Source of the DNA: Neelides folsomi
Lineage: Eukaryota > Arthropoda > Collembola > Neelipleona > Neelidae
DNA: 64,000 bases
Direction of reading: 5' to 3'
Assembly (NCBI GenBank): GCA_034687125.1
Contig: JAQGBZ010000227.1
Span: forward strand, 37,198 to 101,197
The position numbers and the translations under genes are program-made. Below are positions 22,001 to 54,584 of this stretch, one piece after another. The notes beneath the pieces were generated by a model that worked only from the letters and a program-made list of their open reading frames with translations, did no database searches and was not told the origin of the DNA. Positions within the stretch are counted from its first letter, which is position 1. The number at the start of each line of letters is the position of its first letter.

Positions 22001-25000
22001 TATGTTAAATACATAATTGTTATATTTAAATATTTTTTATTGAATCGAGATTTTCACATTTTTCACCCCAATAAATTCACAATTTCCTTTTCATTTTGAG
22101 GTTTAAATTTTTACTCGTTTAAGCGTAAACATTTTTAAATCGCTTATCTAATATCTTTATATGGTAAATATCGACTATGTTAGAATAACAATCATTAGAT
22201 TGACCATTTCATAAGTTATAATGGAACATGATCCAATTTATGGGTTTTTATGATGTTGCCTATTTAGAGTATAAAGCACATTTAATATCAACATTGATAT
22301 TTTGCATACTTGCATAAAAATAAATAGAACTGTGCGGTTTGAAAGTTTCCTCGTTTGAACCTAATTAAATGAAGTATTAAAATGGCAATAAGGAATAAGA
22401 AATAATATTTATATATGTAAATTAGATACGAGCTATGACAAGGCATGTGGAAGTCAACCACGACGTGGATCCGCCCCGCTTACTCCACTACTTGGGAGGG
22501 ACACTCCTTCGAGATTTGCTGTAATTATTCAGTTTCACTTATACCACCTTTACATTGTTTAACCAAAGGGACAATTAAATTAATTGACATTAATTTCGGT
22601 AGAATTTCTTCTCGAAACGGTCTTTCAAGTCGAATCCACTTAAGAGAACCAAAAGCGTCACGAAATTGGAAAGGAAAAAGCCGTCAGGAAGCGAAACTGA
22701 AAGGTGCGATGATTTTTACAATTTATAAAAAAGATTTATTTGAATTTGTTAATTATGAATTCAACTTTTTCATTTAAGTCTTTATCTTTAATCGTTTATT
22801 AATTCAACTTATTTATATTTATTTAATTATTTAGAATTTATATAAAATTTAATTTATGTTCCTTGAAATTATTAATTTTATTAAATTTTAATTAATTAAT
22901 TTATTTTCTAATTTCAGCCCACGACTCAACGAAACAAATCGTCTCCGAAGTTCCCGATCCCACGAGAGTTTGTTGGGTTGGGGAAGCGGCGGGTTGAGCC
23001 CGAGCTCTTTTGTTAACCACGGGATGATGAACACAGTTGATTTGGCAGGGGGTGACATCACCGTCCGCCCCCTCCACGCATCAATCCTCGATGGGGATTT
23101 TGTGTTCCAAGTTGGGACCAGAAACGGGACGAAATATTATTCATGCACTTCTGCTGCTGAAAGAGATGCTTGGGTTTCTTCATTGAGAGAAGCAATCAAG
23201 CCGTATGCGGACGAAGTGCGTCGTTCTGACTCTTCTTTGAAGATTTGGGTCTTGGAAGCAAAAGGACTTGGGAAAAGGGGGAAAAGATTCTTCTGTCAAT
23301 TGTATTTGGACGATGCGCTTTATGGGCGAACATGTCCAAAAGGCCGTGGGGATCTTCTCTTTTGGGGAGAACATTTCGACTTTAATCAACTGCCCCATTG
23401 CACAAATACAATTTCGGTCCTCCTTTTTCGAGAAGCGGACAAGAAAAGGAAAAAGGAAAAACATACACTTATTGGTATATTCAAAATTTTATTCACTTTT
23501 TTTACAAAATATTTGAATTTTATTATTTAATTTGAATTTTACTCAAATTAATAATTTCTCTATTCCTAAAAACTCTTTTAAAGTTATGATGTTAAAGTTT
23601 AAGTTCATTTGCTAAAATTGAATTTATTCTAATTTTTTCTCATTTTGTGTTTTTATTATCTAATTTTCATTTTACGCATTTTATATAGTTTTGTTAAAAC
23701 ATAGGAATTTGAATTTAATTTTGTTTTAGGTCGAGTATTGATTCCAGTTGGGACTGTAAAAGGACGTAGTTTGGTGGAGAAATGGTATCCGTTGGTTTTG
23801 GAGGGGAAGGAAAATCGCGAAGGGGCGTCGTTGAGAGTTAAAGCCAAATTCTTGTCCGTGGATATTCTTCCGCTCCGATGCTACAAGCCGTTCCTTCACG
23901 TAATTCCCCTTTAAAATTCAATTTTATTTTCCATTTTCCTTCCCTTCTTCTGTTTTTCATCAAAGTGGAGAAAGATAAGTTGGAATTAATTGGCGTGGTT
24001 CTTTCCAGCATATCAAAGAAGAATACGGGCCAATTTGCGAAGCTCTCGAAGGGCTTTTGTCAGTCAAAGCCAAGGAAGAACTCGCGTCTTCGCTCGTACA
24101 CGTTCTCCATCATGAAGGAATTGCCAAAGAACTCATTGCGGATTTGGCTTTACAAGAAATTCTCAAAAGCGGTATGATTCAATAATATTTAATAAATTCA
24201 ATTGTCGAGTTTCACATTTAGAATGCAATAAGTATTATATTATATTTTAAAAATTATTAACGAAATTTATTATCGTGAGTTATTAATTTAAATGTTGTTA
24301 ATTTTTACAGGGGATGAAAAATTGACATTTAGAGGGAACTCAATCGCCACCAAAGCGATGGAATCGTTTTTGAAGGTTGCTGGAGCTGAATATCTCCACA
24401 ATACGCTTGGACCTTTCATTGAAGAATTCCAAGGGGCGGATGAACCTTTTGACTGTGAAGTTGACCCGTTGAAATTAACAGCGGCGGCTGATTTGAGCCG
24501 AAATCAAAGAAATCTGAGAAATGCTGTGGACGCAGTTTGGAAATCAATACTTCATTCTGCTCCCAATTTCCCTATGTAAGTCCAAACATTATTTTTAATT
24601 TTAATTTACTCAAAAGATTAAAAGTTTTCTAAATGTCTCGTAAATGTGATTTATTTAATAATTGTTTCTATTTGATTTTCAGCGAGCTTCGTGAGTTGTT
24701 CAGACATTGTCGGGAAAGTCTTGAAGTTGCTGGGCGATCGGAATTGGCTGACCATCTCCTTTCGGCTTCACTCTTTTTGAGATTCTTATGTCCCGCCATT
24801 TTGTCACCATCACTTTTCAACATTACTAATGGTACACTTACTAATTCTAAATAACAGAATGGCCAACAATCAATCAATATAATATTTTAGACAATATTAG
24901 ACAATTAAACAACATAGCTTAATTATTACGATAATTATTCATGTTAATAATATTGTGATATTGCAGAATATCCAAGTGAAAAAGCAGCAAGGAATTTAAC

Positions 25001-29179: not shown

Positions 29180-30680
29180 AAATTGAATTGGTGTTTTAAA
29201 TAGCAACAAAACAAATTCTTTGAGCAGGATCATAATTATTTGAATTAAAGCAATCGTTCATTTTTTCAACTCCGTCAAAAAATATTTTATAACATTTTCC
29301 ATTCTTATCAATTACTCCCCTAAGTACATGAGGACGATCATGTGTAAAAATATCAGCTATTTTTAAACCTCCCGTTGATTAATATTTAGGAGAATGATGT
29401 CCATTCCATAAAAATATTCTGTTTTGTGAAAACCCAAAATGAAAAATTCTACCAATGTCTGTATAGTATCTCCCAGTTTGAAATTTTGTATTGCAGTCGT
29501 ATAAAATCAAATCTCTGTCAGAATTACACACCCGAGTGGATATAAATGAAAATTGGAAAATGATCTCTTTACCATTAAATGAATAACTTGGAAATTGCGT
29601 ATAAATGGTTTGGGCCTTATCATTGTTTATTTAAATGAATTCGATTTTTTATAGTTTATAAGTGTGAAAATATTTTTTGTTGGTTTCCAGCGTTGAACAA
29701 AAGCTTCATTATCAACGTCATCAAACGAATCATAAAATGCAATGTCTTTTGATTTCAAAATATACTTATTTTGTTGACATATTCGAAATTTATTTTAGAA
29801 GTTGCATATTTTTCACTTGTTAAAACCAATTTATCAATTTCAATTTCTTTGTCATAAGTAAAAATGGAAATGGAATAAATCTCTTCATTAACTGACAACT
29901 TTGGTTCATTGCAGATTTCAGATGAATTTTTCTCGTCAATTTTGATACTAAAACATTTCCTATCTTCATCAATATATAATCGATAATAATGGGGAAGATT
30001 GTCATTTGGATGAACAATATTATAAGATTCACTTTCAGCATTAATTCTAAAATCTTCGTGGTGATCATACGCAAAATTATTGTAGATTTTCAAAGATTCT
30101 TCAAATGAGAGTTTGATTTGATATTTTGTTAAATCCTTTTTAACGCATTTATTGAAAGCAATTGACGCTGCGCGATTTCCATTTTTGTGTTCTTTATAGA
30201 TGAATTGAAATTTCATAGGTTTTCCATCAAATGAATACCTTGGAATTTTTGTGAAAACGTGCCGCTTTTGTTCAGTGTGTAAGGAATAGCCATATTTGAG
30301 AATTGTTGTATTTTTGACTAAATTGAGCGAATTTGTTAAACTGTTGCAATCCTTCCATTTTCTAAAAAATATTCCTTCCTCGTTTGGTTCAAAATCTTCT
30401 TCAAAGGCAACGTGTTCAGTTTTTCGAATAACGTTAATCGAATTCTTTACATCCATCAAATTTTGGTTAATTTTAGGCAAATATTTGTTTAGATATTTTT
30501 CGCTTGACTTATTCACACCTTCAATTTTTTAATTATATTATCCAATTTGGAATTAGAATTTAAAGTTTTCTCTTGCGAAGGATTTAAATTTTCAATCTTC
30601 AATTTTATGCTGATTGTGAGACACTTTTTCGTTTATTGAAGTTGATTCTAATAATATTTCATTTACATGAGCTCGGATTT
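29180..30680 (-). pseudogene. decayed two-module copy of the calreticulin-like lectin family
   Basis: The first module is open on the minus strand from 30516 to about 29755 (EEDFEPNEEGIFFRKW, FTKIPRYSFDGKPMKFQF, HYYRLYIDEDRKC) and matches residues of the intact copy at 31604-33211. The second module (29.2-29.75 kb) still reads FDCNTKFQT-like and HVLRGVI strings but is cut by several stops, including one near 29380 in HHSPKY. The coiled-coil start upstream of 30520 is also broken. A truncated one-module product from 29755-30516 cannot be excluded. Confidence 0.75.
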
Positions 30681-31603: not shown

Positions 31604-33211
31604 TTATAATGTATTTGCGATTTTCAAACTGCTCGTGAGAATAATTTTCCCAATATCAAATGCCGAGCAAGAAAAGTCCCAGATTCCTATAGCAGCATAA
31701 CAGATTTTTTGTGTGGGATCAATAATGGGTGATTTAACACAACGCTTTAATTTTTCAACTCCGTCGAAAAATACTTTATAGCATAGTCCATTATTATAAA
31801 TTACAGCCCTAAGTACGTGAGGACGATAATGAGTGAAAACGTCGGCAATATCTTGGGCAATATCAAATTCTTCCCTATTTGAATTATGTTTAGTTGTAAG
31901 CTTATAATTTGATCTCTGAAAATATATTGTGGAATTTTTAAAACCTAAGTGAAAAACGTTTCCTGATGAAGGAAAATCTTTTCCAGTTTGAAATTTAGTA
32001 TTGCAATCAAATAAAATTATACTTCTCCTAAATTCACATTCTCTGTTTGACTTAAAGGAATATTGAAGAATTAATTCTTTATCTTTGAATGAATAACTTG
32101 GAAATTCTGTGTAAATATAGGTAGAATCACCTTCGTTAACAAAACTAATTCCAGATTTGAATGAAATTGATTTTGAAAAACTATACATTGTGGATTTATT
32201 TTTTGTAGGCTTCCAACGGTTAATAAAAGTTTCATTATAAACAATGTCTTCAAAAGAATCATAAAATACAAGATCTTTAGATTTCAAAATTTCTTCAATG
32301 TTATTTGTAGAATTTTCAAGTTTCATTTTAGAATTTGCATATTTTTTACTTGTTGTTAAAACAAATTCATCAATTTCAATTACATTGTTTGAAGTTTTAA
32401 TTGAAACTGAACAAATTTCATTTTGGCTTAGCAACTTTTCTTTAAAGCAGTCTTCAAAAGTTTTTTTGTTATCAATTTCAGCATAGAAACATTTTCCATC
32501 TTCATCAATCGTAAATCGATAATAATGTTGTAAATTGTCATTTGGATAAATTGTGCGAAAAGTTTCATTCTTATTTACAATTGATCCATTTGCATTAATT
32601 TCATCATTAATTAAATTATTGATAATTGAGAGTGAGTTGTTTTCAAATTCGAGTTTAATTTGATATTTTAATAAATCGTCTTCATTACATTCATTGATAG
32701 CAATTGATACTCCATGATTCCCCTTTTTGTGTTCTTTATAATTAAATTGAAAAATCATTGGTTTTCCATCGAATGAATAGCGTGGGAAATTTGTGAAAAT
32801 GTCACGTTTTTTTTCACTGTGTAATGAAGATTCGAGTGTTCCATCTTTGACTAAACCCTGCGCATATGTCAAATTGTTAAGATTTTTCCATTTTTTAAAT
32901 ATAATCCCATCTTCATTTGGTACAAAATCATCTTCCCATGCAACATGTTCATTTTTTCTTAATATGTTAATCGAGGTTTGAAGGCCAATGAAGTTTTGAG
33001 AAATTTTAGTTAGGAATGACGTTAAAGATTTTTCTGTAGGTTGGTTAACAATTTCAATTTTTTTAATTAAATTATCCATTTTTGAAATTGAATTATAAAT
33101 TTTTTCTTGCATGGGATTTAAATCGTTTTCAATTTTTCGTTTAAACTTTTTTATATTTCTTTGATTTGATGCAAACATTACTTGTAATATTTCATCAGAT
33201 TTTTCTACCAT
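31604..33211 (-). CDS. intronless 535-residue coiled-coil protein with two calreticulin-like jelly-roll modules
   Basis: The frame is intact, from ATG at 33209-33211 to the stop at 31604. Residues 1-75 are Lys/Asn/Ile-rich and look like a coiled coil; there is no signal peptide and no KDEL-type end. Module 1 (about 78-300) reads DDFVPNEDGIIFKKW, FTNFPRYSFDGKPMIFQF and HYYRFTIDEDGKC. Module 2 (about 315-535) reads YDSFEDIVYNETFINRW, FPSYSFKDKELILQYSF and HVLRAVIYNNG. This order (an F/W-rich first strand, a KG-L-QF strand, then H-L plus a D-rich strand) is how the calreticulin/calnexin N-domain is built. The likeness is by eye, so the lectin call is tentative; the acidic C-domain and P-domain repeats of true calreticulin are absent. 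Two decayed paralogs lie at 29.18-30.68 kb and 11.58-12.63 kb. The lack of introns is unlike its neighbours. Function unknown. Confidence 0.75.
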   Translation of the reverse strand: MVEKSDEILQVMFASNQRNIKKFKRKIENDLNPMQEKIYNSISKMDNLIKKIEIVNQPTEKSLTSFLTKISQNFIGLQTSINILRKNEHVAWEDDFVPNEDGIIFKKWKNLNNLTYAQGLVKDGTLESSLHSEKKRDIFTNFPRYSFDGKPMIFQFNYKEHKKGNHGVSIAINECNEDDLLKYQIKLEFENNSLSIINNLINDEINANGSIVNKNETFRTIYPNDNLQHYYRFTIDEDGKCFYAEIDNKKTFEDCFKEKLLSQNEICSVSIKTSNNVIEIDEFVLTTSKKYANSKMKLENSTNNIEEILKSKDLVFYDSFEDIVYNETFINRWKPTKNKSTMYSFSKSISFKSGISFVNEGDSTYIYTEFPSYSFKDKELILQYSFKSNRECEFRRSIILFDCNTKFQTGKDFPSSGNVFHLGFKNSTIYFQRSNYKLTTKHNSNREEFDIAQDIADVFTHYRPHVLRAVIYNNGLCYKVFFDGVEKLKRCVKSPIIDPTQKICYAAIGIWDFSCSAFDIGKIILTSSLKIANTL

Positions 33212-33339
33212 TTTTTCTCCTAAAGAAATTTAATGTTTTTATATTTTTTACAATTCGGATTTATAAAATTATTATAGTAATTTACACATAAAAAATTCGA
33301 TAATTTTTGATAATTCGATAATTTGAATCTTTGTTTTAT

Positions 33340-34590: not shown

Positions 34591-37500
34591 TTACTGTCCG
34601 GCTCCAGCTCCAGCTCCAGCTAAAGATATTACATTGGTTAATTAATAATGTAATAAATAAATGAATTAATAGGATGGCAAAATGTTCTGATATAGTTTGG
34701 AAAACATATATAACTTTTAATCTGATTATCATAATTTCATAAGATTTTAATATGATATAGGATATTAGATGTATAATAAAAATGAACATAATATACAGTA
34801 TCGGAAATTGGTCTTTCCACTCTTTAAACTTTTAAATTTCAACCACAATAAATTTGTAATTAGTTATTTTATTTACACCAATTTTTTTATGACAGCTTAA
34901 TATTGGTCTAGACGTGTAACCTCTAAAATATTTTAAAATTACAACTATTAGTTTCCTAATTAAAAATGATAGAGTGGGAAAAGTGAGATTTGAGGTTGGA
35001 AATTGATCTTTCCACCCTCTTTCAATATCATTCTTTCTTATGTTAAGAATTGTACAATAAACGTTTTATGAATTTATAGGTATTTATTAGATAATATATA
35101 GTCACTATGATATGTAAATTTTATTTGGGAGGGCAAAATGCCTACCAGAAAAGAAGTTACAATTGAAGTTAGAAAAATAATAATTAAATTACACGAAAAG
35201 GGTCAAGGTTACCTTAAGATTGCCAACAGTTTGTTCTTGAATAAGTCAACAGTTGCAAAATTTGTTCAAAAGTTTAAAAAGACGGGTTTAATTGCAAATA
35301 AAAGGGGAAGATCCGGTGTCAAAAAGACAACTTCAAGAATCGACCGTGCTATTGTTGAGAAAATTAAACTTCAACCATTCAAAACTGCAACCCAAATAGT
35401 TAAAGAAATACAAAGTGATTATAATGTTTCTTTGAGTTCACGTACAATTACAAATAGATTAAAAAGTGCACAGTTTCACTCTCGAGTATAATTGAGAAAG
35501 CCCTGGATTTCTAAAAAGAACATGCAGCTTCGACTCAAATGGGTTATTGAGGATCAATTGAGCAGTGGAAGAATGTCTTATGGACAGATGAGTCCAAATT
35601 TTGTTTGTTTGATCATGGGGGACGACATCGTGTATGGCGAAAATCAAATGAAGCACTTAAACTTCAACACCTCAGACCAACTGTGAAACACGGCGGAGGT
35701 AACTAATAATAATAGCATATTAGATTCTTAATTGGGTATATATTTTTAGGATCCGTGATGGTATGGGGAGCCATGGCCTTTAACGGCGTTGGGATCCGCC
35801 AGCAGATTGAACCAATGATGACAAAAGAGATTTACATACAGATACTCGAACAAAATTTAAAGTTATCAGCTCGAATGACGGGGATGAGGAGAGACTTCAT
35901 ATTTCAACAGGATAATGATCCTAAGCATACAGAGAATGTTGTGAAAAAATGGTTTCAAAACAACAAAATTGATGTTCTTAATTGGCCATCACAGTCTCCG
36001 GATTTAAATCCAATTGAGCATTTATGGGCAAAAATGGAGTATAGTATCAGAAATCGACAACCTTCAAATAAAGTAGAACTTCTTCAAATTCTTCAAGAGG
36101 AATGGGCCAGATACGATGAAGACACAACAAGAAACCTCGTGGAATCACTTCCTAGGAGAATTGCTGCTGTAATTCAATCAAAAGGAGGACCAACAAAATA
36201 TTAAAAATTAGACTAACATTATAAATTAACTCAATTATCATTAGGGTAGAAAGACCAATTTCCAATCTCAAATCTCACTTTTCCCACTTCATTTTTAATT
36301 AGGAAACTAATAGTTGTAATTTTAAAATATTTTAGAGGTTACATGTCTTGACCAATATTAAGCTGTCATAAAAATTTGGTGTAAATAAAATAACTAATTA
36401 CAAAGTTATTGAGGTTGAAATTTAAAAGTTTAAAGGGTGGAAAGACCAATTTCCGATACTATACCTTCCATATTATTACAATGCTATTATTATTAGCGGT
36501 CAAATCACAGACTCATAAATTAGAATATAAATCTTACCAATTTCCTTCCTCTTCAAATAAACTTAATTTCTTCATTGGAAAACCGCCCAGATTAAGGTAA
36601 ATTGGCAATTTATGATTGCTTGATTTAAAATTCATTAAATACTATGGCTAGAATTTTAAAAAAGTTAAAATTTAGCAAATGAGGAAAAGGATTGAGTTGA
36701 AGGCGGTTATAGTGCATCTGCACTTACACGGAGATCGTCCTGTGAAATTAGGAAAAAGCTTTACACAACCCGATCAAATTGTACTGCGAACTTTAAAACT
36801 TTATAGAGAAACAGGATCTGTTCAAGATCGTCGGAAATCGGGACGTCCACGAACAATCAGAACCGCGAAAGTGATTAAGTCTATTAAAGAGAGAATGAAG
36901 AGAAATCCAACCCGCTCAATGAAGAAATTGGCAAAACTGATTGAAATCTCCCGTTCATCAATCATGAATGTTATTCACTGTGATTTGGGTATGAAAGAGT
37001 ACAAAATATCAAAGACCCATTTTATTTTGAAAAAGAATCAAATCAAAAGGGTAGAACGGTGTTAGAAGCTATTGAGAAGATTTCATTCGAAAAAGAGCAC
37101 ACGGAAAATTCTTTTTAGCGATGAAAAGATCTTCACAATTGAAGAGAAGTTCAATTCTCGAAACAAGAGAGTTTACAGCGTGAGCCGTAAATCAATCTCG
37201 CTTCATTTGAAGGTAAAACCGAGAATGGCATTCCCAGCTTATGTGATGGTTTGGGCCGGTGTAAGTTCAATGGGGAAAACACCTTTACATTTTGTTGAGA
37301 AAGGAGTTAAAGTAAACAAAGATAATTACATAAAAGATGTACTCGAGAACGTTGTGAAACCGCTCAACATAAAATTATTTGAAGGAGAGAATTGGGGTTT
37401 TCAGCAGGATTCTGCGACATCGCACAGTGCCAAGAAAACCCAAGAATGACTCAAAAATAATTTTTCCGACTTCATCTCTTCAGCAGAATGGCCAGCCTCA

Positions 37501-39548
37501 AGTCAAGACCTAAATCCATTGGATTATTCCATTTAGGGTCAATTTGAATCACGAGTTAACGCGAAGCATCACAAATAAATCGAATCTCTCAAAAATACAC
37601 TTGAAGGAGTGGGACAAATTTCCCATTGAGAAGATTCAATCTGCAATTGGTGATTGGCTTCCTCGTCTTCGGAAATGTATTGCTGCTAAGGGAGAAACCT
37701 TTGATACAAAATAGATCTTACGTTATAATACACATTTAATCATTACAATGTCAATTAATTTTCCAGATATTCTGTCAAACAGAATTAAATTTACTCATTC
37801 TTTTCCAAACTATATCAAAACATATTGTCATCCTATTATTTGAACATTGAAAATTACCTCCGAATCCACGTCCAGCACCAGCTCCGGCTCCAGCTCCTGA
37901 TCCAGCTAATAAAATAAAATTCGTTAATAATCCCTATAAATTTTTAAAAAGGAGTGCGAATTTCAAAATACCTCCGAATCCACGTCCAGCTCCTGCACCA
38001 GCTCCCGCACCAGATCCAACTCCTGCACCAGCTCCCGCACCAGATCCAGCTCCCGCACCAGATCCAGCTCCGAATCCACGTCCAGCACCAGATCCAGCTA
38101 TATTAAATTTTAATTATATTCTGCACTATTCAAAATATTGTATTTTAACGTTCTTCTCGAAATATCATATAAAGCAAAATAATTTTTTTAAATGCATTTA
38201 AATCAAATACGCGAAATATACTAACACAGATATTATTGACTTTTGTATATATGCATCCTTAAAGGATGATCCATTGATTTCTAAATCGCTAAATATAGAT
38301 AACTAATGAAGAAATGATATTCTATTTCTATTATCATAGAGTTAGCGTATGCAAACAAAAAACTAAATTTTGTCCGAAAGCCTTACAAATCATTGTACCA
38401 ACAAAAAGTAGTTATGAAAATCACCTCCGAATCCTCGACCTGCACCTGCTCTAGATCCGGCTATTAAACAAATATTAAAATTGCATGATTTATATATATA
38501 TATATAACATATAGTATAGTAATATAAAAAATAATGAGATTAAAAGGTATGGAGTAATAGTATGATTATACATATTTCTAATCACCTCCGAATCCTCGTC
38601 CAGCTCCAGCACCAGCTCCAGCTCCTGAGCCAGCTCCGGCTCCAGCTCCGGCACCAGATCCAGCTAAAAAATTAAATATTTTTTAGAATTGATTAATTAA
38701 AATCGATGTTATGATTCAAGTTGAAGTCGTTCACCTCCGAATCCACGCCCAGCTTCTGATCCAGCTCCTGATCCGGCTCCAAATCCACGTCCAGCTCCAG
38801 CTCCTGATCCGGCTCCGAATCCACGTCCAGCTCCAGCTCCAGCACCGGATCCAGCTTAAATTATGTCATTAGTTAACAAGTGAAATAAACAAAATTTTGA
38901 ATTTTACCTCCGAATCCACGTCCAGCTCCTGCTCCAGCTCCAGCTCCTGAACCAGCTCCGAATCCTCGTCCAGCTCCAGCTCCGGCACCGGATCCTGCTT
39001 AAATTACGAGTCATTAGCTAACAAGTAAAATAAATAATATTTTGAATTTTACCTCCGAATCCACGTCCGGATCCTGCTCCAGCTCCTGCTCCAGCTCCGA
39101 ATCCACGGCCAGCTCCCGCTCCGGCACCAGATCCGACTATTCAATATAATTAATTAGTACATTTCATATTTGTTTCTCATTTATTTGAATTTACCTCCGA
39201 ATCTTCTTCCTTCATGATGAGGATCATGCTCCTCATCTAAAAATTAAAATTATATTTTCAAAATCAAAGAATTTCAAATATCGTGAGACAAAATTTAGAA
39301 ATCAATTCCGATTGTTAAAATTAAATTACAATTAGAATTGATTTAAAAAAAGTAATATAATTTTGTAATATTTTGTTTAAGAATCTTACCTTCATTTGGG
39401 CTGCACCCTATTGGATCAAAAAAGGGGTTATTAACATTTACTCAATCAAGATTAAATAATAAATAAGTAAATATGGGCTATAATTAAGTGAAGGTATACA
39501 TGAGGATGCGAAGAGGGCGAAGAAACAGATGACGTAAAAAGAGTTCAT
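34591..39548 (-). CDS. secreted Gly/Ala-rich silk-like protein, 11 exons
   Basis: Exons in transcript order: 39548-39500, 39407-39390, 39236-39195, 39136-39053, 38997-38908, 38854-38735, 38663-38586, 38460-38425, 38097-37972, 37905-37858, 34619-34591. Every junction is phase 1 and the sum is exactly 720 nt, encoding 239 residues. Residues 1-16 (MNSFYVICFFALFASS) form a signal peptide, followed by a short WCSPNE and an acidic His-rich piece (DEEHDPHHEG). The rest is (A/S)G dipeptide repeats, and each repeat exon ends in GRGFG or a variant. The chain ends AGAGAGAGQ. Repeats of GAGAGS type are typical of fibroin-like structural proteins; some secreted Gly-rich antimicrobial peptides look similar. 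Repeat exons are all multiples of three, so they can be gained, lost or skipped in frame. The last intron hosts two nested transposons. Function is inferred from composition only. Confidence 0.8.
34796..36461. mobile_element. Tc1-type transposon with long inverted repeats, nested in the maT element
   Basis: The ends read CAGTATCGGAAATTGG (left) and TAGTATCGGAAATTGG (right, reverse strand), with TA duplications at 34794-34795 and 36462-36463. The inverted repeats are about 230 bp, and each carries an outer and an inner copy of a GGAAATTGGTCTTTCCAC-like site. This is the two-site (IR/DR) layout known in some Tc1 elements. Total length is 1666 bp. Confidence 0.9.
35138..36204 (+). pseudogene. 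Tc1 transposase (DD34E), one stop and one frameshift
   Basis: The N-terminal paired-like helix-turn-helix (35138-35491) is followed by an in-frame TAA at 35489-35491, after which the same frame continues with RKPWISKKN. A frameshift lies between about 35545 and 35560, and WTDESKFCLF then carries the first catalytic Asp. A 51-bp GT-AG intron (35699-35749) splits HGGG|SVMVWG in frame. The second Asp lies in FQQDNDPKHTEN and the Glu in SPDLNPIEHLW, giving DD34E. With only two lesions the copy is young, but it cannot encode a full protein as read. Confidence 0.85.
36679..37714 (+). pseudogene. maT transposase (DD37D), decayed
   Basis: A helix-turn-helix start (SGRPRTIRTAKV) is followed by a TAG at 37063, then FSDEKIFTIEEKFN with the first Asp, MVWAGVSSMGKTPLHF, and FQQDSATSHSAKKTQE with the second Asp. 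After a TGA at 37447 the frame goes on to AEWPASSQDLNPLDYSI, whose last Asp is 37 residues after the second. A TAG stands where Trp is expected, and more stops follow. It is older than the Tc1 copy nested upstream in the same element. Confidence 0.85.
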
Positions 39549-40352: not shown

Positions 40353-42175
40353 TTAGTAAGCACAAACTCGACCATCTTCAGAAATGTGGAGTTTGATCCA
40401 AGGCAAAAACTCTATAAAATATAAACAAATTATGTTTAATTCAAATTAAATAATCTGGCTTAAATATTTAACTGTCGCTTTTCTTAATTTGAAAAGATTT
40501 TTTTAATTTTGTATGTATGGTACATATAAATTATATATGCAAAGTTACCGTTAATCCTCGTAAAAACTCCAACTCCTTTAGGTCTTCCGTAGCAAGCTGT
40601 CCAAGAGTCAACTCCAACTTGGATTTTTTTCTCGCCAATTGAAACCAGTAATGGTCCACCGGCGTCTCCCTAAAATTACCCATTCAAAAGTTGCAACAAT
40701 TATACAATAAAAGTTTAAACTTTAATTAAAATTACCGGGCAATCATATAAAGTGTGGAGATTTGAGGAGGAATTTCCCTTTGGCGGCTCCTCCATTTTGG
40801 TGCACATTAAGGAATCAGGCATATTTGACCATTCGGTGGAATAATCATATTTTTTGCATTCACCACGGTCAATAATAACAGATTGCAATTCACTTCGTTT
40901 TTCTGGGGCCAAAATTCCATCTAAAACAGAAACACATAATTTTAAATTTTTTAAATAATTGTTTTTGTCTATGTTTTAATGGTGAAATTAGTAAGTGAAG
41001 AAAACTTGAAATTACCATAATCTTTGAACCTCCAAAAGAGCGAAGAAGCATTTCTTCCCTCATAAAAGGAATCGGATTCTGTTGGGAGACAAACCGGGCC
41101 GACTCCTCCTTTATTACCAAAAGTTGGAACTGGCCCTTGAAGTCTCAATAAAGCAATGTTGTAATCTACACCAAAACCACAAAATTTATATAGGTATTTT
41201 ACTTATATGATTATGTTGTTAATTGTTAATTAAAAATATAAATTGTTAATTTCATACCCAAATGCTTATCAGAATACTTTGGATGGATAATAACGCGATG
41301 GACTTTTTTCCTAAATAGAAACTTGTCGTTTAATTTTCCTTCATCCCCTTCCTCTTCGTTCTTAATTTTCCTTTTGAGTAAATGCGCCTTTGGCCATGAA
41401 CCAATTAAGACTTCTACGCCGCTTGAAACGCTCCTGTTAATATTAAAAAGTTAGGAGATTTAATAGCTTTATTCTTACAATTAAATAATATCCACGTACA
41501 TGTAACAAGTGCATTAAATTGTATTAACTCATGTAGATGCCTTAATGCATTTAATATTAAAAGGTAATTAATTGCGTATTTATAAATTTGTTGATTTGTT
41601 CAACCCGTCAACACATGAAGCCGCCGTGAGAACATAACGATCGTTCACAAGGGAACCTCCACAATAAGCATAGGACATTCCAGGAGAAACAATGCTCACA
41701 GACCAAGGATATTCTGTGACTCTTTTTAAACCTTCATCGGCCCAAATGTCCGTTTCTTCGCTTTCGGTCCATTCCCCACAACCTTTTAAATTAGAAATTC
41801 ATAATTAGTTAATTAATCATTTACATAGTTGTACAAGCATAGTTGTATATTCATAGTTTTACTAATAATTAGTTTTAAATGGGAAACTTACGACAATCAA
41901 TTGTGTTGTTTGTATTATTCCTTATTGAATGCCACCATTGGAGATTGTCCGGAACGTCTTCATCAAGCAAGGGAACTTTGCCTGATAAAACGGCTCGAAG
42001 TTGGCGCCCATAAGGAAGAGACAAAGATTTCTAAATCACAAAAAAACAATTTCAATTATAAAATTTCTTAAGAAAATGAAATGTTTGAGTTTACGTCAAA
42101 GGGCGATTTGAAAGCAAAGGAAAATAAGAAAAGGTTTGCGTGTAGAAACAATGGAAAAAGAGATTTAAATCCCAT
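40353..42175 (-). CDS. secreted serine protease homolog (trypsin fold, catalytic His and Ser lost)
   Basis: Exons in transcript order: 42175-42095, 42030-41892, 41782-41605, 41433-41258, 41165-41016, 40920-40736, 40669-40549, 40411-40353. Phases all agree, giving 362 residues. Residues 1-23 are a signal peptide (MGFKSLFPLFLHANLFLF). The S1 fold is clear: EYPWSVSIV, YCGGSLVNDRYVLTAASC, DYNIALLRL, VCLPTE, GDAGGPLL, GVGVFTRI. The histidine of the usual LTAAHC is Ser129 and the serine of GDSGGP is Ala306; Asp192 is kept. It cannot work as a normal protease. Such homologs act as cofactors or binding proteins in arthropod proteolytic cascades (family knowledge). No clip domain is seen. The segment between strands holds a charged insert (KRKIKNEEEGDEGK). 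It lies on the same strand as, and upstream of, the silk-like gene. Confidence 0.9.
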
Positions 42176-44110
42176 TTTTCAAAGTTTGTTAAACAAAAAT
42201 GAATTGAATGGTTTGAATTGAATTTGGGAAACCTTTTATTGGAAAATGATCTAACGGATGATTTTGTATACAGTTAATCTTTTCAAATTGATTCAACATA
42301 TGTCATTGATAGGTAAATTTTAATTAAGTTCATTGTTTTTTAGAATTTTGAATAAAAAGTGGATTATTTCTACTATTATTCTTTTAAGTTGCCATTTGGG
42401 TGATCATTCAAGCTCTATTTATTCATATTTACAATTCAATACAACTTCTAAAACTCTTAGTTTGGAATAAAAGTGTTAAAGGTGTAGAATCATGAGATGA
42501 ATAAAAGATTTTAATGAAACAAAGCAATTATTCAAATTTTGACGATTTCATTATTCCATTACTTTTTTTCCAAATTGCACCCATATTCCAGTTCCAATAT
42601 GTTCTTCATTTGATATCGTCAAATACATACAAATTATACAATATACATCATTTACATACACATATGTAATTGACAAATGATGTAAAAGATAAACGGTTAT
42701 TTTATTAATTCTCGTTAAATAATTTTTATTAATAATTCATTGATCCATTGGCTTTTCATCCTTCAGTTGAATGACTCTTGAATTTAATTGTCTGAATTAA
42801 AGGAAGCCAAATAGGAAGTCGAATTATTTAACCTAATTAATTCCCTACTCCAATTGTGTATATTTTATAGCACACACGTCAAATAACGATTTAAAGTTTA
42901 AATGTCAATGTGATGAATATGATAAAATGTATAATATTATGTACTTACATTATGAAAATTATAAAATCTTCTGAAATTCTAACTTATTTGATCAAAGTTA
43001 ATTATAAGATTTCGCCAATTATTGGTGAAAATGGAATGGAATATATAATGAGTGACGCTCGAAAGCCAAGGAACTGACATGTGAGAGGAAATTATTGTTA
43101 ATAGCAGACATACGTAGAGTATGTTAAATGTCTCGGCATTCAATAGTCGTAAGGTATTTCTATTAAAACAGTGTTTATTCAATCCATGTGCAATTAAATT
43201 GGTTTCGTTTAAATGTTAGTAAATAAAGGAAATGACTGACTGACCGAATGACCTCAGTAATTTGATGCTTAAACTTTTAAACTATTTAACTCAATTTAAA
43301 ATTTATGTTGCTAACCAACTGTGCTAATATATTATTGCATTATTTATTAATGCATATATAAAATATATTTTCTTATATCAGTATAGGTATTATGTGTTGT
43401 AAAACTACATTAGACCATGTTACATATAACGTTATAACATGCTTTAACATAATACATAATAGAATATAATAATATAATTTACATACAAGTATATATGTAA
43501 TTTATTAACTACTAATGAATGATGAATAATAATAATTTAATAATTATAAGCTATCAGCCATTAAATTTTTAATATTCTATACTAATATATGAGTGACTAA
43601 GATACCATCCACTTAAATATAGCGGCAATACATTAAAGTTTCAATGTGAAAGGGAAAGTACAAAACATGTGTTAAAAAGTTAAAAACTAACATTTAATGA
43701 TTATTTAATTACTGTCAAAAAACTTTTACACTGATATTATTATATAATTGTAATTGTAAATAAGTATTAAATGAATATAAAGTTTATACTGTTCTGAATA
43801 TATGAGAATAATTAGGTTTTAAAATTGTGTTAATGCTTTATCAAATTCAATTTTAGACTCTCTTTAAGATTTCCAATCAATTAATGAGTGTTAATTAAGA
43901 AGACGGAGGAACTTTCACAAGTGAGAATTTCTTTAAGTTCTTTCAATATAGACTCAACAAGTCCTTTGCAATACATTACTTTATATAATTGGTTTATCTT
44001 TTATGGAAAATTTTGGAAAAATGTGATTGTAATATTTATTAAAAATATTGCGTCAGCAATATTTAATTTTGGTAAGATTTTATTTTTTCTAAAATTTGTT
44101 TTATTTGCAG
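42176..44110. other. intergenic, no gene seen apart from a possible 5' leader
   Basis: AT-rich sequence. The upstream part of the decarboxylase gene probably lies in the last 200 bp: an AAAAAT|GTGATT donor near 44020 could supply the first two bases of its start codon. Nothing else is supported. Confidence 0.4.
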
Positions 44111-47100
44111 GAATCAGCAACTTCTCACCGGGAACTTGTTTCTTTCGATCTTAATAATATCTCTCAAAGGTAAAATGATAATGCTAATAGAAATAACTTT
44201 TAAAACCTTTTAAACAATTCCTATAATTTTACAATTCCATGTTTATTTAATTATAATAATTAACTTTTGCAGTTGGTGTTTTGGGAGTTGTCGAAAAAGC
44301 TCGTAAGTTTATATTTAATTAAAAGCATTGAATTCAGTTTTAGTTTTATTTTATTCCTTGTTTTTAGCGCCAATTCCACCTACTCCAAAATATGAAGATA
44401 ATTGGGTTTCAATCCCAATTAAGAAATATCACGATGAATTTTTCGATCGACTTTTCAAAATGCTTCTCGAAAAGGGCATTTTTTTCAATTCAAAAGTAAA
44501 AAGTTAAAATATTTTAGTAACACACTCTAGTACAGGAATAAAGGATTTCTATAAATTAATTAATTGTTCAAGAAAGTTTCTCCTGGCTTAATATTTTTTT
44601 AACTATTTTCATAGGCCGAACGTGAAAAATCTCCTTTTAATTTCAAAAAACCTGAAGATCTTTTAAAAATACTTGAGAAAGAAATGAGATTGGGGAAAAA
44701 ACCAGCAAGTCAAAGTGATCTCCTGAAAACAATTGAAAAAATGATTGACTTAACGCCTCACGTTTCACATCCATTTTACTTGCATCGGAGAGTTGCAGGG
44801 TTGGAAATTAAAATTAACATTTAAAAAATATTAGATAATTACTAATATATTGAATTTAATAAATAACAGGATTGACCCTTACGGAATGATGGGCGATTGG
44901 ATCGTATCCGTTATGCATGGAGTTATGTTGAATTATCTTTTCTCTCCCGTTTACACACTCACTGAATATGAAATTTACCAAAACGTTCGTGATCTCGTTG
45001 GATATCCGTCAGATGGAGGGGATGGGATAGGTTTGCCAAGTCAGGGACATTCTAACAGCTACGCAATTCAACTCGCACTGCAAAATCAATTCGCTAGATT
45101 TAAACAAGAAGGAATTTATGGAGTTAAATTCGCCATTTTTGTCTCTAAAGCTGCTCATTTTACAACTGAGAAATGGGCAGCTTTTGAAGGTAATTTAAAT
45201 ATTTATAATTCTATTAAAAAATAATTATTTTTATTAAACTATTTTATACTAATAATTGAATATTTGCTTTGTAATATTTCCATTATATTTTTTTACATTT
45301 TTGATTCACTTTCATATTATGTGATTTAAATAGTCATAATGTTTAATAGTGCAAAATTTTAACTTGAAAGATCTTGTAAGTTTAATTTAAATTATGATTT
45401 TACAGGTATTGGTACAGGCTCGGTAATTCGAGTTGATACGGGCATTAAAGGCAGAATGTGTCCATTAGCACTAAAATACGCGGTTATGAGAGCAAAACAA
45501 AATGGAACGATTCCTTTGATCATCATAGCAACTGCGGGAACACCAGTTTTGGGTTCAATTGATCCACTCGATGCGATCGGAAAAGTTGCAAAGGAATTTG
45601 GCATTTGGTATCACGTGGATGGACATTGCGGCGGAGCTTTAATGCTTAGCGATAAATACCGCGAGAAGCTCAAAGGAGTTGAGAAGTAAATAAGTAATTT
45701 AATTAATCAGATATAATTATAAAAATGACATTTTCTCAATTTATATAATTTTTAAAGGTCAGATTCATTCTCTTGGAGTCCTGATTGTCTTACATCAATG
45801 CCAATTTCTTCCAATGTCCTTGTGACCAAACAACATGGAATTCTTCAAAAAACATTTGGTCTTGGTTATGGAATGTTTTACAACACGACTGCCCTTTACA
45901 ATCGCAAAATTGATGAGGGAGATCGAACGCTTCAAACAAGTCGTAGAGCTGATTTATTCAAAATTTGGCTCGCTTGGAAAGCTAAAGTATAAAAATAATA
46001 TACAATTTTATTCATTTTTAAAAAATAAAACAATTATTGTATACATATGTTATATCTGTTTATAATAAGTACATATATTAAAATAATTGAATAAATTGTT
46101 TATTTTTTATAGGGCAAAAAGGGATTAGCTAATCATATTGATTACATTTACGAAAATTTACAATTTATGATCAAAGATATAACCAAACGGTCTAAATTTG
46201 TTCTCATTCTTTGTGAATATGATACTCCATTTATATCATTTTATTATATCCCTTCATCTTTGATGAAAGATGATGATGCGACGAATCCTTCATTCAAAAC
46301 GAATATGGATGTGGTAAAATTAATTTACAGTCATTTCCTATAAAAATATATCTTATAACTTATAACATACTTATTTTATGTAAATTAACTGTAAAATTTT
46401 TAATTAATATATGTATATCATTATAATTATTTAGTTCACAGATAAGCTTCAACAAAAATTACTTAAATTGGGTTTAATGCAAATTGGAATTTCCTCCTCA
46501 AAAGTTTTGCCATTCCCGAACAAAAACACAACACCAAATTTCTTTACAATCAATTTGAGCAATTCTGCTTTAACCAAAGAAGATCTCGTTTACATCGCCG
46601 ATAAAATTGAAGAAATCGGAGAAAATTTGGATATCAAAGACAAAGGAAAAATTAAAATTCCGGATCCTCCCAAGAAATATCCCGATTTTGTTACAGCCCC
46701 AATTGCTGATCAACACAAAAAACTCTTCACAAACACTTTCAAATTATTAAGAGAATCCGGACTTTATTTCGCAGAAAAACGAAAAGAACCGCCAATTTTA
46801 TTTTCAAGACCCAAAGAACTTAAAGGCAAAATGGATTTCCATCTTGGGAACGATTCTTTGGGTGAAGATAAAATATTCGACTTGTTGAAAAATACAATAA
46901 AATATCAAGCCCATCAAACACATCCATTTTGGTTGCCAACTGCCGGGTTGAGTTCGGGAGCTGAGCCATACACAATGGCTGCTGACATCGTTTCCTCAAC
47001 GTTGACTTCTACATTGATTACTTATGAAGATTCCCCGGTTTTCACTTTGGTTGAAAATGAAGTTGTCCGAGCTGTTCATGAAATGATTCATTATCCCAAA

Positions 47101-48740
47101 AACGCCGATGGATTTGTGACAACTGGAGGATCTTTGGGGAATATTCATTCTATGGTTTTGGCCCGGAATAAGAAATTCCCACATTTGGCTAAAGAAGGAT
47201 TGGATAAAAAAGTAAATGGAAAAAAATTGGCGGTTTTTATATCAAAAGATGCTCATTATTCTTTGTTCAAAGCAGCATATTTTACAGGTTTAATAAAAAT
47301 AAATTTTTCATATATAAATTTTTAAAGATGTTTATTATAGCAATAACTGATTTTAATAAAATGTTTTTTTAAACTAAATAGCTGATATGATAATAATCTT
47401 ATTTTTTATTTATTAGGAATTGGGAAAGACAATTGCTTTTTAGTTGAAACTGATCAAATAGGAAGAATGACTCCACTGTCACTCAAGGAATTGGTCAAAA
47501 AATCAATTAAGGATGGATTTATTCCTTATTATGTTGCTGCCACATCTGGTAATTTAATAAATACGATAATTAATAACTCTTTTGTGTATTATTGTGCTTA
47601 ATTTATAATATGTAAATAACATCAAATAGGAACATCAACATTTGGAGAAATGGACCCACTCGACGAAATTGCTGAGATTTGTAAAGAATTTGATCTTTGG
47701 CTTCACATAGACGGAGCTTTTGGAGGTTCTGTAATCTTTTCTGTAGCAGAAGCGGGAATTCTTAACGGGATTGAAAAGTAACAAGAATATTTTATAAATT
47801 ATTCATATTCTTTAATTTTCTTAGTAAATGAAGAATAGTTTTTGATGTTTAAAATGTTTTAAATTTTAGATCTGATTCCTTCCTGTTTAATCCTACAAAA
47901 ATGCTTGGAGCTTCATTCACCATCAGTGTGTTTGTCACAAGGCACGAAAATCTGCTTTCAAAAAGTTTTGGCCTTAAAAACATCATGGATTTCGATATTA
48001 AAAACGAGGTTTCTACTTTATACAATCGGGATTTTGACAATGGGGACAAACATTTACAAACAAATAGAAGGGCTGACATGTTCAAATTTTGGCTTTTGTG
48101 GAAAGCAAAGGTAATATAACAACAATACTATACCTTATGTAATGTTTTTATAAAATAGTTAAAGAATTATATACGCAAGGTATACATTTTAATGTTTTAA
48201 AATATCAAAATTGATGTATGGTTTAACTATTGTAAAAAAGGGAACTGAAGGACTTGGGAAACATATTGACCGTGGTTTTGAAAATTCCAATTTTGCTCAA
48301 GAGTTCATCATGCAACAGCCAAATTTTGAAATGATCCTACCGAGATTCTTCATGACAAATGTGTGCTTTTACTACATTCCAGAAAGGCTTCAGGACATGG
48401 ATCGACATTCACCAGAGTTCAGAAATGAAATGCTGGATGTAATCATGTTATATAAAATATGTTGCTTTTAATTGAGAAATTATGAATACGCATAATATAT
48501 GTATATATTTCCTTATATTATTGTATTTATAACTATAACCATATGAGAATATGTTTATTTGCTTAGGTGAGTATTGCAATCCAGACTCAATTATTCCAAG
48601 CTGGGATTACCTTTATTGTGATCCAATTTGAAGATGAATCAGCTTTGTTTCTCAAATTCATTTTCTCAAACAGCGGGATCCAAAAAGCTGATATTGAGTT
48701 TTTAGTGAAGTACATCGCCTTCATTGCCAAAGATCTCTAA
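44111..48740 (+). CDS. secreted tandem-fused group II PLP decarboxylase; first domain lacks the PLP lysine
   Basis: Exons: 44111-44169, 44273-44302, 44368-44495, 44615-44799, 44870-45189, 45406-45685, 45758-45986, 46113-46313, 46435-47287, 47417-47548, 47630-47777, 47870-48110, 48241-48438, 48567-48740. Phases agree throughout. With two further bases for a split ATG the sum is 3180 nt (1059 residues). Residues 1-25 are hydrophobic (NQQLLTGNLFLSILIIS), a signal peptide or anchor. Domain 1 (about 30-510) and domain 2 (about 530-1059) each show the GAD/CSAD-type order: S-x-x-AH-F/Y, T-A/S-GT, DPLD, HVDGHCGG or HIDGAFGG, the lysine loop, and LQT(S/N)RRAD-F-K. In domain 1 the lysine loop is SWSPDCL, with Cys345 at the lysine position; in domain 2 it is FNPTKML, with Lys866. 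Exon 46435-47287 joins the end of domain 1 to domain 2 without a stop, so this is a fusion, not two genes. Substrate unknown. The start codon is inferred. Confidence 0.85.
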
Positions 48741-48750
48741 ATTCAAGTGA

Positions 48751-48760
48751 AATAAATAAA
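48751..48760 (+). terminator. polyadenylation signal of the decarboxylase gene
   Basis: Two overlapping AATAAA hexamers lie 11 to 20 bp after the stop codon. Confidence 0.6.
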
Positions 48761-49173
48761 GATCATTCATTTAATTCGAATGCATATGTTATATAACTTA
48801 TATATTAAATAAATAATAACAATCCATCCATACATTACAATATGCATTTATATCACCAATATTTAACGTAGTTTATACACTGATATTAATAAGTTCATCG
48901 ATTTTATAATAATTTATTAGATCATTGTAGTATTGCACGATTAAAGATAATATCATTAATCATTATAATATGTTATATTGTTATATAATATTCTTAATAG
49001 ACAAGTAGCTTAATATTATTTACAATTTCTATTTTGTACATTTTTATTTTATTAAATTTATATCTAACCCAACCCAATTAATTTCTATACAATATTCTTA
49101 GAATCTCAAGCTATTTATAATTCATTGACTCCATTCTATGTGTTTTTCATTAATAGATAACGTTTAACTTAAC

Positions 49174-51045: not shown

Positions 51046-53571
51046 ATGGATTTCAACTATTTAATTTTTAAATTATTCTACTTTATGGTTCCAATTTTTT
51101 TTTCCTTATCATGTTGGTTCAATTACTATACACAATATGTACAAGACATATTTATCAATTCGGATCCAGCATCGGAGCAGTACGATTTTATTGTTGGTAA
51201 TGTTTATTAAATTCTAATTAAATTTTGAAATAATTCAAATACGAAACTTCGATAGTTGGCGGCGGGTCTGCAGGGTGTGTTGTTGCAGCTCGACTTTCTA
51301 AAAACAGCCGTGTGCTTTTGATTGAGGCTGGTGGAGATCCAAACATTATGAGTTCAATTCCCGGGTTAACAGTCGATTTGCTTCATAACCCTGAAATTGA
51401 TCACATGTATCAAACTGTTCCACAAATGAATTCAAAAGGACTTATTGACAATGTATGCAATATTCACATATTCTGAGATAATTTACATATTGACAAAGAT
51501 GTCTGTACTCATACTCTATGTAAATTAACATGCAAATGTTAGCAATAAATCTCAAAAAGTCTGAATTTAAATATATTGTAAAATGTTTTGTAAGGTTAGC
51601 AAGTGGCCTCGAGGTTTTGGACTTGGTGGATCAAGTCAAATCAATTATATGGTTTATGTACGATCTCATCCCGCTGACTTTGATAATTGGGCAAATATAA
51701 CAAAAGAGCCTAATTGGAATTATGAAAATGTTGTGAAACTTTATAGGAAAAGCGCACACCATAATGAAAAATATAAGATTAATGGTTGTTATTCATTTTA
51801 AATGTAATTCAATAAAATTATAGTTTTTAAAACATTATTTGTGTTTCCAAATATTTTATCAGAGAAACATTATGGAAGCACGGGATATGAAAAATTGAAT
51901 ATTGAAGAAAGGAAATGGCGCCCGCTTTACAAATATTGGTCAGAAGCTGCACAGGAATTGGGATTTTCTGACATTGATGTTAATGGTCCACAGCGATCAG
52001 GTTTATAAAAAATATAATTAAGTTTCAAATCTCGTAAATTTATTTGTTATCATTTTAGCCGTTGGAATTGTTGATGGAACTCAAAAGGATGGGAAAAGAT
52101 ATGGAGTTTACACAGGATTTATAAAAAATTCAAAAATCGATAACCTAAGAATTGCAAAATATTCAAAAGCTTATAAAGTGACTATTATTCAATTTCGAAA
52201 AATATGAAATATATATTATGTCAATTCAATTATGTATTCAATTACATGTAAATGTTTTTTAGATTCAATTTGACAAGAATAATCGAGCAATTGGAATTTG
52301 GTTTGAACAATATGGGAAGAAAAAGTTTGTTAGAGCCACAAAAGAAATCATAATTTCTGCAGGATCAATTGATTCTCCTAAACTTCTCATGCTTTCTGGA
52401 ATAGGACCTAAAGAACATTTAAAATCAATGGGGGTTAGAAAAATAAAATTACAAATTTAACTTATCGACTTTTACTACCAATTGAATTGATAAACAACTT
52501 TATTAATTTAAATTATCTTTTAAGATTAAAGTCAAAGCAGATCTTCCAGTTGGTCAAAATTTGCAAGATCATCCATTTTCAATATATATGAACGTTATTA
52601 TCAATGAAACAATTTCATACATTTCTGAAAGAGATTTTGGAATTTCAACATTGACCGATTATTTTTTGAATGGCGAAGGTCCTTTAACTTCCCCATGTGG
52701 TCAATATGGACAATTATTTTACACGACCAAAGAAGCGTTAAAAGAAAACAATAATGTTGATTGGCCAGATATGCAAATATTTTTACTTGGAGTTGGAAAT
52801 TCTCTTACAAGCCCAGAATTTCTTTCGCGCGGTTTCAATTTGAAACTTGACGTTTTGAAGAAATTCCAACGCGAAACATTAGGAAAAGATGGTTTAATGG
52901 CAATTGTAATTGGAGGAAGGCCGAAATCAAGAGGATTTATCAATTTAAAAAGCAAAGATCCTAAAGAACATCCAATAATTGATCCAAAATATTTAGAAAA
53001 TCCCTATGATTTACGCGTTCTTGTCGATGCCCTTAAATTCATGACCAAAATGATTGAAACCACAAAAACATTTCAAAAATTAAATGCCCGCCTTTCGAAT
53101 GTTCATTTTCCCGGGTGTGAAGAATTTAAATTTAAAAGTGATGAATATTGGGAATGCTACGTGAGACATTTGACTTTTACAACTTATCATCCAGCAGGAA
53201 CATGCAAAATGGGATTAACTCAAGATAAATCATCAGTTGTGGATCCAAAGTTGCGGTAATTTTAAATATGCAATTTTATAATACACAATATACCATTTTT
53301 ACTTCTTTGAATAATTAATTACAATTAATGAATTTTTATGATTTTTAGTGTTCTTAGAACTAAAGGTCTTCGTGTGGCTGACGCTTCAATTATGCCACAT
53401 TTAGTTAATGGGAACACAAACGCAGCTACAATTATGATCGGCGAACAAGCGGCAAATTTCATCAGAGAACATTGGGCTCAACAACTCCAAGTGTCTCATT
53501 TGTTCTATCGCACATTCTTATCTAAATCTCACCATACAATGACATTTTTAGCAAATAATTATGTAATTTAA
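51046..53571 (+). CDS. GMC-family FAD oxidoreductase (glucose/choline dehydrogenase-like)
   Basis: Exons: 51046-51196, 51256-51452, 51595-51784, 51863-52000, 52059-52177, 52263-52433, 52525-53255, 53349-53571. Phases agree and the sum is 1920 nt, or 639 residues, close to the family norm. A hydrophobic N-terminus (about 7-27) is a signal or anchor. YDFIVVGGGSAG binds the FAD dinucleotide, followed by [11 protein letters not shown]. The GMC signature 1 is [17 protein letters not shown] and signature 2 is [16 protein letters not shown]. The catalytic histidine is His544 in [10 protein letters not shown] and the partner is Asn590 in NGNTNAATI. The fold uses FAD to oxidise an alcohol; the substrate cannot be told. 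Arthropods often have many of these, some used in cuticle, hormone or defence chemistry (family knowledge). Confidence 0.93.
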
Positions 53572-53713: not shown

Positions 53714-54584
53714 TGACAATTATATGCAATGATAATTACATCCCTTGGAATAATCATAACAGCAAATTGTTCCAGCTGGGAATTTTTTCTTTCATCTTCA
53801 CAAGGACTTCTCAAACAGTTCACTGCCCCCGCAATCTTCTATAGGTCATAAATATACTATTTGTATTTACCATACTTTTAATTTTGGTTTATAATTAATT
53901 AATTGATAAATAAGTCATATTTTATATGTAGTTAAAGTAACAAATAAAAGTAATACCAATGCAAGTTCTTAATGTTCCTTTCTCAGTAGATGGACATTGT
54001 CCGTTTGTTGGCGGTGCAATGGGGCGAGGATTTGAGCAGAATCTACCACATCCGTTCGGACATCAAATTTGTGAGTTTGGACATCCATTTAGGCAACCAT
54101 AGGAGCAAATTCCCATTGAACCTCGTTTGATTTTTGGACATTCGGAAGTTGAAGCTATTGGCGGACCTTGTGTTTGTACAGGATTCATGCAAACTCTGGC
54201 ATAACCATTTGAACAACAAATTTGCCCATTTTGACATCCTTGTCGGCTACACGAGTCAATACATGAGCTTTTAGTTCCGCTTGCAACTTCTGGACATTGA
54301 CCAGATGGCTGACGTCCAAAATTATCACAATTTCCTTATTATATTATAGAAATGCAAAAATTCCATTACTATACAATATATTATAATAACTTTAATTGAA
54401 AAATATCACAGAAATAACTGGTCAATATTAAATATTTCTCGAGTGTTAAAAGTAAACTTTCAAAAATAATTACATACAACTACATTTTATCATGATTTAG
54501 ATATTTATTCTTTAATATAGCTTATCGTCGATACTTACCGAAACTTGAAACTAAGAGAAACGAAAGAAGACTAATAAATCTCAT
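53714..54584 (-). pseudogene. secreted WAP-type (four-disulfide core-like) protein, decayed
   Basis: Exon 54584-54539 encodes a signal peptide (MRFISLLSFLLVSSF). Exon 54334-53957 follows in phase with two Cys-rich repeats (GQCPEVASG, CQNGQICCSNGY; then ECPKIKRG, CPNGCGRFC). In the second repeat a TGA at 54063-54065 replaces the first Cys of the expected CC pair (SQI-stop-CPNG). The last block, from 53838, has the third repeat (CIEDCGG, CLRSPCED, AGTICCYD) spread over different frames, with shifts at runs of G and A. WAP proteins act as protease inhibitors or antimicrobials. One stop plus shifts argue for a recent pseudogene; sequencing errors at the homopolymers are an alternative for the shifts but not for the TGA. 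Confidence 0.7.

Follow-up and report, generated by a model that had tools for sequence, protein, structure and literature searches.

Two fused group II decarboxylase-type domains in a single gene of the collembolan Neelides folsomi

A two-domain gene with an open junction

The window analyzed here is a stretch of 64,000 nucleotides (30% G+C) from the collembolan Neelides folsomi, taken from the forward strand of contig 227 (JAQGBZ010000227.1, positions 37,198 to 101,197) of assembly GCA_034687125.1, which holds 75.1 Mb in 840 contigs; coordinates are those of the window. Its plus strand carries, at 44111..48740, a gene in which two domains related to the pyridoxal 5'-phosphate (PLP)-dependent enzymes GAD and CSAD follow one another in one reading frame. 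Fourteen exons were found, the true first exon not being among them: exons 1-5 at 44111-44169, 44273-44302, 44368-44495, 44615-44799 and 44870-45189, exons 6-10 at 45406-45685, 45758-45986, 46113-46313, 46435-47287 and 47417-47548, and exons 11-14 at 47630-47777, 47870-48110, 48241-48438 and 48567-48740. As an earlier note on this DNA had stated, the 14 exons chain in frame, giving 1,058 codons with the terminal TAA (48738-48740) as the sole stop, and all 13 introns (65-216 bases) are of the GT-AG type. Domain 1 has G+C contents of 0.46/0.35/0.31 at codon positions 1, 2 and 3 and domain 2 of 0.45/0.33/0.33; the value for the introns of the gene is 0.16. This base composition is as expected for coding sequence. 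AATAAA hexamers lie 3' of the TAA at 48751, 48755 and 48808; another is found within exon 9 (46896) and eight more in introns, so that on sequence grounds an early end of the message is possible.

The junction between the domains lies inside a single exon (46435..47287, +), in which the end of domain 1 is followed by a linker of ~8 residues and then by the start of domain 2. The exon is 853 bases long and comprises 284 open codons, in keeping with the earlier claim that it crosses from one domain to the next without a stop; at the stop-triplet rate of the gene's introns (0.109), an open run of this length has a chance of ~6e-15. The motif NLDI at the end of domain 1 begins at exon residue 64 and IPDPPKK, at the start of domain 2, at residue 75. 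No Met occurs between 46477, within domain 1, and 46831, within domain 2, and the intron upstream of the exon measures 121 bases. With an open junction exon, neither a stop nor a usable Met, and so short a preceding intron, no ordinary gene boundary fits here. The fusion is independent of splice choice because the junction is internal to one stop-free exon, and an exon-joining mistake was rejected on the same ground. Searched against the 75-Mb assembly, the DNA of the fusion exon gave one match, namely itself. The fusion of two domains in one gene is thus confirmed.

At the 5' end, exon 1 lacks an ATG, and a TAA at 44073 bounds its frame on the upstream side; the true start must therefore lie in a further exon. 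An unproven candidate at 43128..43153 (+) would encode MSRHSIVVR, with the donor AAG/GTATTT and a phase compatible with exon 1. Its donor score of 6.7 ranks second among the candidates in 40901-44100, after a two-codon candidate at 42677-42681 (6.8); the 13 donors of the gene itself score 4.8-10.2.

Both domains match the Pfam family PF00282 (Pyridoxal_deC) across its length and far above its curated cut-off of 27 bits. Domain 1, an N-terminal pseudo-domain by the residues described below, spans 44368..46635 (+; exons 3-8 plus the 5' part of exon 9) and scores 185 bits; its nearest solved relative is glutamate decarboxylase 2 (GAD65, 2okk; E 1.1e-79). Domain 2 spans 46636..48740 (+; residues 545-1058) and scores 238 bits, with GADL1 (6enz; E 8.7e-87) as its nearest solved relative. 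They share 35.5% identity with one another and 27-34% with five animal GAD/CSAD-type sequences. In place of the single domain of working GAD, CSAD and GADL1 enzymes, two domains thus occupy one open frame. Elsewhere in the same genome, contig 548 encodes an ordinary GAD and contig 170 a CSAD-like protein; both genes were modelled by hand, and both products keep the lysine, the loop Tyr, the Gln and the Arg considered in the next section. In the GAD gene model, one intron, before the phosphate-binding motif, is GC-AG.

Active-site residues of the two domains

Residues were compared with 82 homologues: 77 bacterial or archaeal frames, the two in-genome paralogues and three sequences of solved structures. 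The bacterial and archaeal loci were the best 80 of 336 matches, three of which were dropped because the frame fell outside 420-620 residues or touched the end of the stretch. Forty-eight columns, numbered as in GAD65, are kept in at least 95% of the homologues. Domain 1 keeps 29 of them and domain 2 keeps 37. Ten columns are altered in both domains (178, N180, Q181, N201, T339, H395, Y425, C446, G447 and R558), but at column 178, where Phe is the common residue, domain 1 has the Tyr of GAD65 itself, leaving nine clear double changes. Domain 2 is additionally altered at M204, which brings its differences to 11, and domain 1 at L182, T206, G242, G243, 244, R255, S284 and K396; at 283 domain 1 is also off consensus, with a Phe like that of GAD65.

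The PLP Schiff-base lysine (GAD65 K396) is absent from domain 1. The exon at 45758..45986 (+) encodes SPDC (residues 341-344) in place of NPHK, as the earlier note had read it, with a Cys where 82 of 82 homologues have Lys. The same exon encodes the catalytic loop GYGMFYN (residues 370-376), in which Met stands at the place of the loop Tyr, with a Tyr two residues to either side. A spliced form that restores the lysine had been named as a result that would tell against an inactive domain 1, and none was found: in the three forward frames of 43001-49000, the pattern [N/D]-[P/A]-x-K had three matches, NPTK of domain 2, the DPPK of the linker (46663) and a DARK 5' of the gene (43054), none of them able to supply it.

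Domain 2 retains the NPTK motif that the earlier note had reported, at residues 862-865; the PLP lysine is Lys865 in the present count rather than Lys866. The exon concerned (47870..48110, +) also encodes an altered catalytic loop. Equivalents of 242 and 243 (both Gly), 244, N247, H282, T335, D364, S389 and K396 are all kept, so that the PLP lysine and the cofactor cage are present in full (K, D, H, N, T, S and the GGS motif); position 244 is Ser in 81 of 82 homologues and Ala in GAD65. At these nine positions domain 1 differs at four. The roles given to single residues are assumed, those of the lysine and the loop Tyr excepted.

The substrate side of domain 2 is a different matter. The loop Tyr (GAD65 Y425), present in 82 of 82 homologues, is replaced by Thr or Met, depending on the alignment. 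Arg558 (81 of 82) has become Lys and Gln181 (79 of 82) Thr, two residues which we take to lie on the substrate side, and the equivalents of His395 and Asn201, each found in 82 of 82 homologues, are altered in both domains. The proposal that domain 2 is the working decarboxylase finds no support in its original form, given these changes in residues kept by 79 to 82 of the 82 homologues; judged by its sequence, with the PLP cage retained and substrate-side residues altered, domain 2 is no ordinary decarboxylase either.

Hydrophobic leader

Two small exons (44111..44302, +) precede domain 1 and encode a hydrophobic leader resembling a signal peptide or a membrane anchor (residues 9-26, LFLSILIISLKVGVLGVV). 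When 12-residue windows of the whole chain are ranked by hydrophobicity, the top six fall within residues 9-26, and the leader exons have no counterpart in domain 2. The signal-like N-terminus noticed earlier is borne out as far as this hydrophobic stretch is concerned, and a secreted or membrane-anchored form, as predicted from it, is plausible. N-glycosylation sites number four in domain 1 and one in domain 2 (2.7 expected in each), which is not clearly an enrichment, and the two paralogues have two and three (2.8 expected). Since no start codon was located and the glycosylation sites show no clear excess, entry into the secretory path is a tentative prediction. The domains contain four and three cysteines, and the paralogues nine and ten.

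Probable origin by partial tandem duplication

Introns of the two domains match in alignment column and phase at four places: 265/1, 359/2, 442/0 and 511/0. The in-genome GAD has 359/2 and 442/0 in common with the fused gene and the CSAD-like gene 359/2 and 511/0; the intron at 265/1 is in neither of these modelled paralogues. An alignment of the part of domain 1 just past the leader with the start of domain 2 scores 102, compared with a mean of 27 for shuffled sequences, none of 2,000 of which scored as high. The common introns and the N-terminus-like start of domain 2 point to a partial tandem duplication lacking the first two exons. The fused gene thus probably arose by a tandem duplication running from exon 3 through the last exon, the second copy lacking the two leader exons.

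A tree of 33 rows, which took in 26 of the 77 retained bacterial and archaeal frames but none of this genome's AADC-like paralogues (contigs 75, 212, 326 and 368), paired the two domains at 100/98 within the animal side (100/99).

No second fused pair was found in the genome, where PF00282 gave at least 38 matches on at least nine contigs and only the contig of the window showed two series of profile positions. Sources outside the genome were also considered. A viral source was rejected: the search patterns hit 14 stretches in viral contigs, and none of the 14 encodes a relative at E 1e-3. A bacterial double-domain precursor was rejected as well: in the best 80 of 336 matches from bacteria and archaea, frames around a match reached at most 641 residues, and none of the 80 loci (stretches of ~4-7.4 kb) contained a second place for the domain at E 1e-10.

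Neighboring features and other contigs

Upstream of the fused gene, at 35111-37446 (+), lie remnants of two Tc1/mariner-like DNA transposons. Within them, 35716-36201 matches DDE_3 (PF13358) with 50 bits, and 37066-37446, which has no Pfam match, was read as transposon by eye from its frame. Further upstream, an open frame of 541 residues at 31607-33229 (-) has no Pfam match, and a shorter frame at 29758-30528 (-) is similar to it by eye; the two may possibly represent a lineage-specific repeated family. The open frame at 37851-38198 (+) is rich in Ala-Pro and Asp-Pro repeats. Neighboring genes with Pfam matches encode a RasGAP PH domain (22892-23527, +), the C-terminal part of a GMC oxidoreductase (52507-53256, +), a WAP-type domain (54066-54335, -) and a cytochrome P450 (55157-55555, -).

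The mitochondrial genome is represented by contig 742 (15,157 bases), on which COX1, identified by profile, and ND2 and COX2, identified by eye, all lie on one strand. The COX1 and COX2 frames are open under code 5, and the gap between them, with the frames as listed, is 28 bases, too short for a tRNA gene.

A single-chain pseudo-heterodimer as the preferred reading

We give roughly even odds (about 0.5) to the reading that the fused GAD/CSAD relative acts as a pseudo-heterodimer within one chain, with a single re-purposed PLP site in domain 2. Both the lysine and the Tyr have been described for GADL1, whose active site is capped by a loop that the other subunit contributes (PMC5947694), and by analogy an intramolecular pairing of the two halves is a reasonable proposal. 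If they pair like GADL1 subunits, the only PLP site would be that of domain 2, lying under the loop of domain 1. We infer that the ancestor was a one-domain gene with a leader, which would have lost its active-site residues for acidic amino acids before anything else; a tandem part-duplication, spanning exon 3 through the last exon, would have followed, with the second copy read straight on, and domain 1 would subsequently have lost its PLP lysine and phosphate-binding motif. Domain 1 may now act as a structural partner in the dimer and lend its loop to the site of domain 2, where PLP would be held on Lys865 in the single remaining site. Given the altered substrate-side residues and loop, PLP binding in domain 2 would be expected to go with a changed substrate or reaction. 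A fuller version, in which the product is a secreted or lumenal PLP enzyme of this kind, with one live site and a rebuilt pocket and without decarboxylation of acidic amino acids, is put forward more tentatively.

Several observations weigh against this account. Of the eight introns placed in domain 1, four (30/1, 44/1, 87/0 and 152/2) lack a counterpart in domain 2; of the five placed in domain 2, one (309/1) is unmatched. Both domains sit on long branches (2.28 for domain 1, 1.85 for domain 2), flagged by the program as a possibly false join, so their pairing in the tree is unsafe by itself; when either was removed, the other became sister to five other animal sequences in quick trees. The replacements in the ten doubly altered columns are mostly unlike between the domains, so the changes could be parallel. 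Finally, so much of the conserved set is missing from domain 2 that this domain may be wholly inactive.

The last point leads to the main rival of a single-site enzyme, namely that both domains are pseudo-enzymes and that the protein, still with the decarboxylase fold, is a scaffold, a binding protein or a secreted factor without catalysis, in which any PLP in domain 2 is structural. The alteration in both domains of the loop Tyr, His395, Asn201, Arg558 and Gln181 speaks for this explanation, and the long branches mean relaxed or redirected constraint. We nevertheless regard it as rather doubtful, since domain 2 keeps nine of nine PLP-cage positions and domain 1 differs at four, a disparity suggesting that PLP has been selected for in domain 2. 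At the opposite extreme, the version given in the earlier note makes domain 2 a conventional group II amino-acid decarboxylase and domain 1 its helper. It can point to the Lys, the Asp, the stacking His and the phosphate-binding motif of domain 2, but it is improbable, with residues near-invariant among the 82 homologues gone and neither loop carrying a Tyr at the conserved place. In DOPA decarboxylase, the Tyr-to-Phe change at the matching position is described as yielding an oxidative deaminase (PMC7497351).

How the halves pair is a separate matter. The linker extends just ~8 residues past the homologous ends, which would suit pairing between molecules, whether of like domain with like or of chains set head to tail. 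A site formed by two copies of domain 2 would, however, equally lack the loop Tyr, and a tandem fusion would be the simplest means of holding unlike partners together; pairing of this kind seems as improbable as a conventional decarboxylase. The least likely explanation is an artefact, be it a misassembled locus, misjoined exons or a pseudogene in decay. The start exon was not found with certainty in 40901-44100, and the internal AATAAA hexamers also fit such a view, but 1,058 stop-free codons, 13 of 13 GT-AG introns, a coding-type composition and a unique locus speak against it, as does a junction to which splice choice is irrelevant. Pseudogene decay in particular was rejected in view of the open frame, the intact splice sites and the coding-type composition.

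If the single-chain pseudo-heterodimer is real, the gene represents a natural experiment on obligate dimers, in which tandem fusion frees one half to lose its cofactor, and the share of each half in cofactor, loop and interface would be testable in one chain. It would possibly also add an extracellular PLP protein to a cytosolic family and mark a route from neurotransmitter-type decarboxylases toward new functions.

Comparison with known systems

The closest known relatives are the animal GAD, CSAD and GADL1 enzymes (fold type I, PF00282), which the fused protein resembles in its full-length family match, in the PLP lysine and cage of domain 2 and in the introns held in common with the two in-genome paralogues. 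It differs from them in having two domains per chain and a hydrophobic leader, in lacking the lysine in domain 1 and in the altered substrate-side residues of both domains. Group II decarboxylases are known as a cytosolic family whose members are homodimeric. Inactive relatives that act as partners of decarboxylases occur outside the family: antizyme inhibitor is a dead relative of ornithine decarboxylase (ODC), an enzyme whose fold differs from that of the group II decarboxylases and whose partners are separate chains. In trypanosomes, the catalytically dead paralogue known as prozyme binds and activates S-adenosylmethionine decarboxylase (AdoMetDC; PMC5201418); the likeness lies in a dead paralogue serving as a decarboxylase partner, but the trypanosome partners are separate chains and the cofactor is pyruvoyl rather than PLP.

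Pyridoxal_deC domains also occur embedded in nonribosomal peptide synthetase (NRPS) and polyketide synthase (PKS) proteins, where, as here, a PF00282 domain forms part of a longer chain (PMC3870968). Those domains sit among unrelated ones, catalytic residues are reported as conserved in one of them, and the part of that report available mentions no tandem pair. The earlier note knew of no enzyme like this one, and two group II decarboxylase domains in tandem were likewise not found in keyword searches of the open-access literature, in the best 80 of 336 matches from bacteria and archaea or in the viral contigs.

An unlike pair of PLP-enzyme subunits is familiar from serine palmitoyltransferase, whose LCB1 subunit lacks the PLP lysine. 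In Emiliania huxleyi viruses, LCB1 and LCB2 are joined in a single chain, and in two of these viruses the subunits are separate genes (PMC5371807); a separate form was not seen here. The viral enzyme belongs to another family, catalyzes another reaction and is found in a virus and an alga, but with two PLP-enzyme subunits in one chain it is, by analogy of architecture, the closest counterpart of the N. folsomi gene, and by the same analogy fused PLP enzymes with unlike halves already exist in principle.

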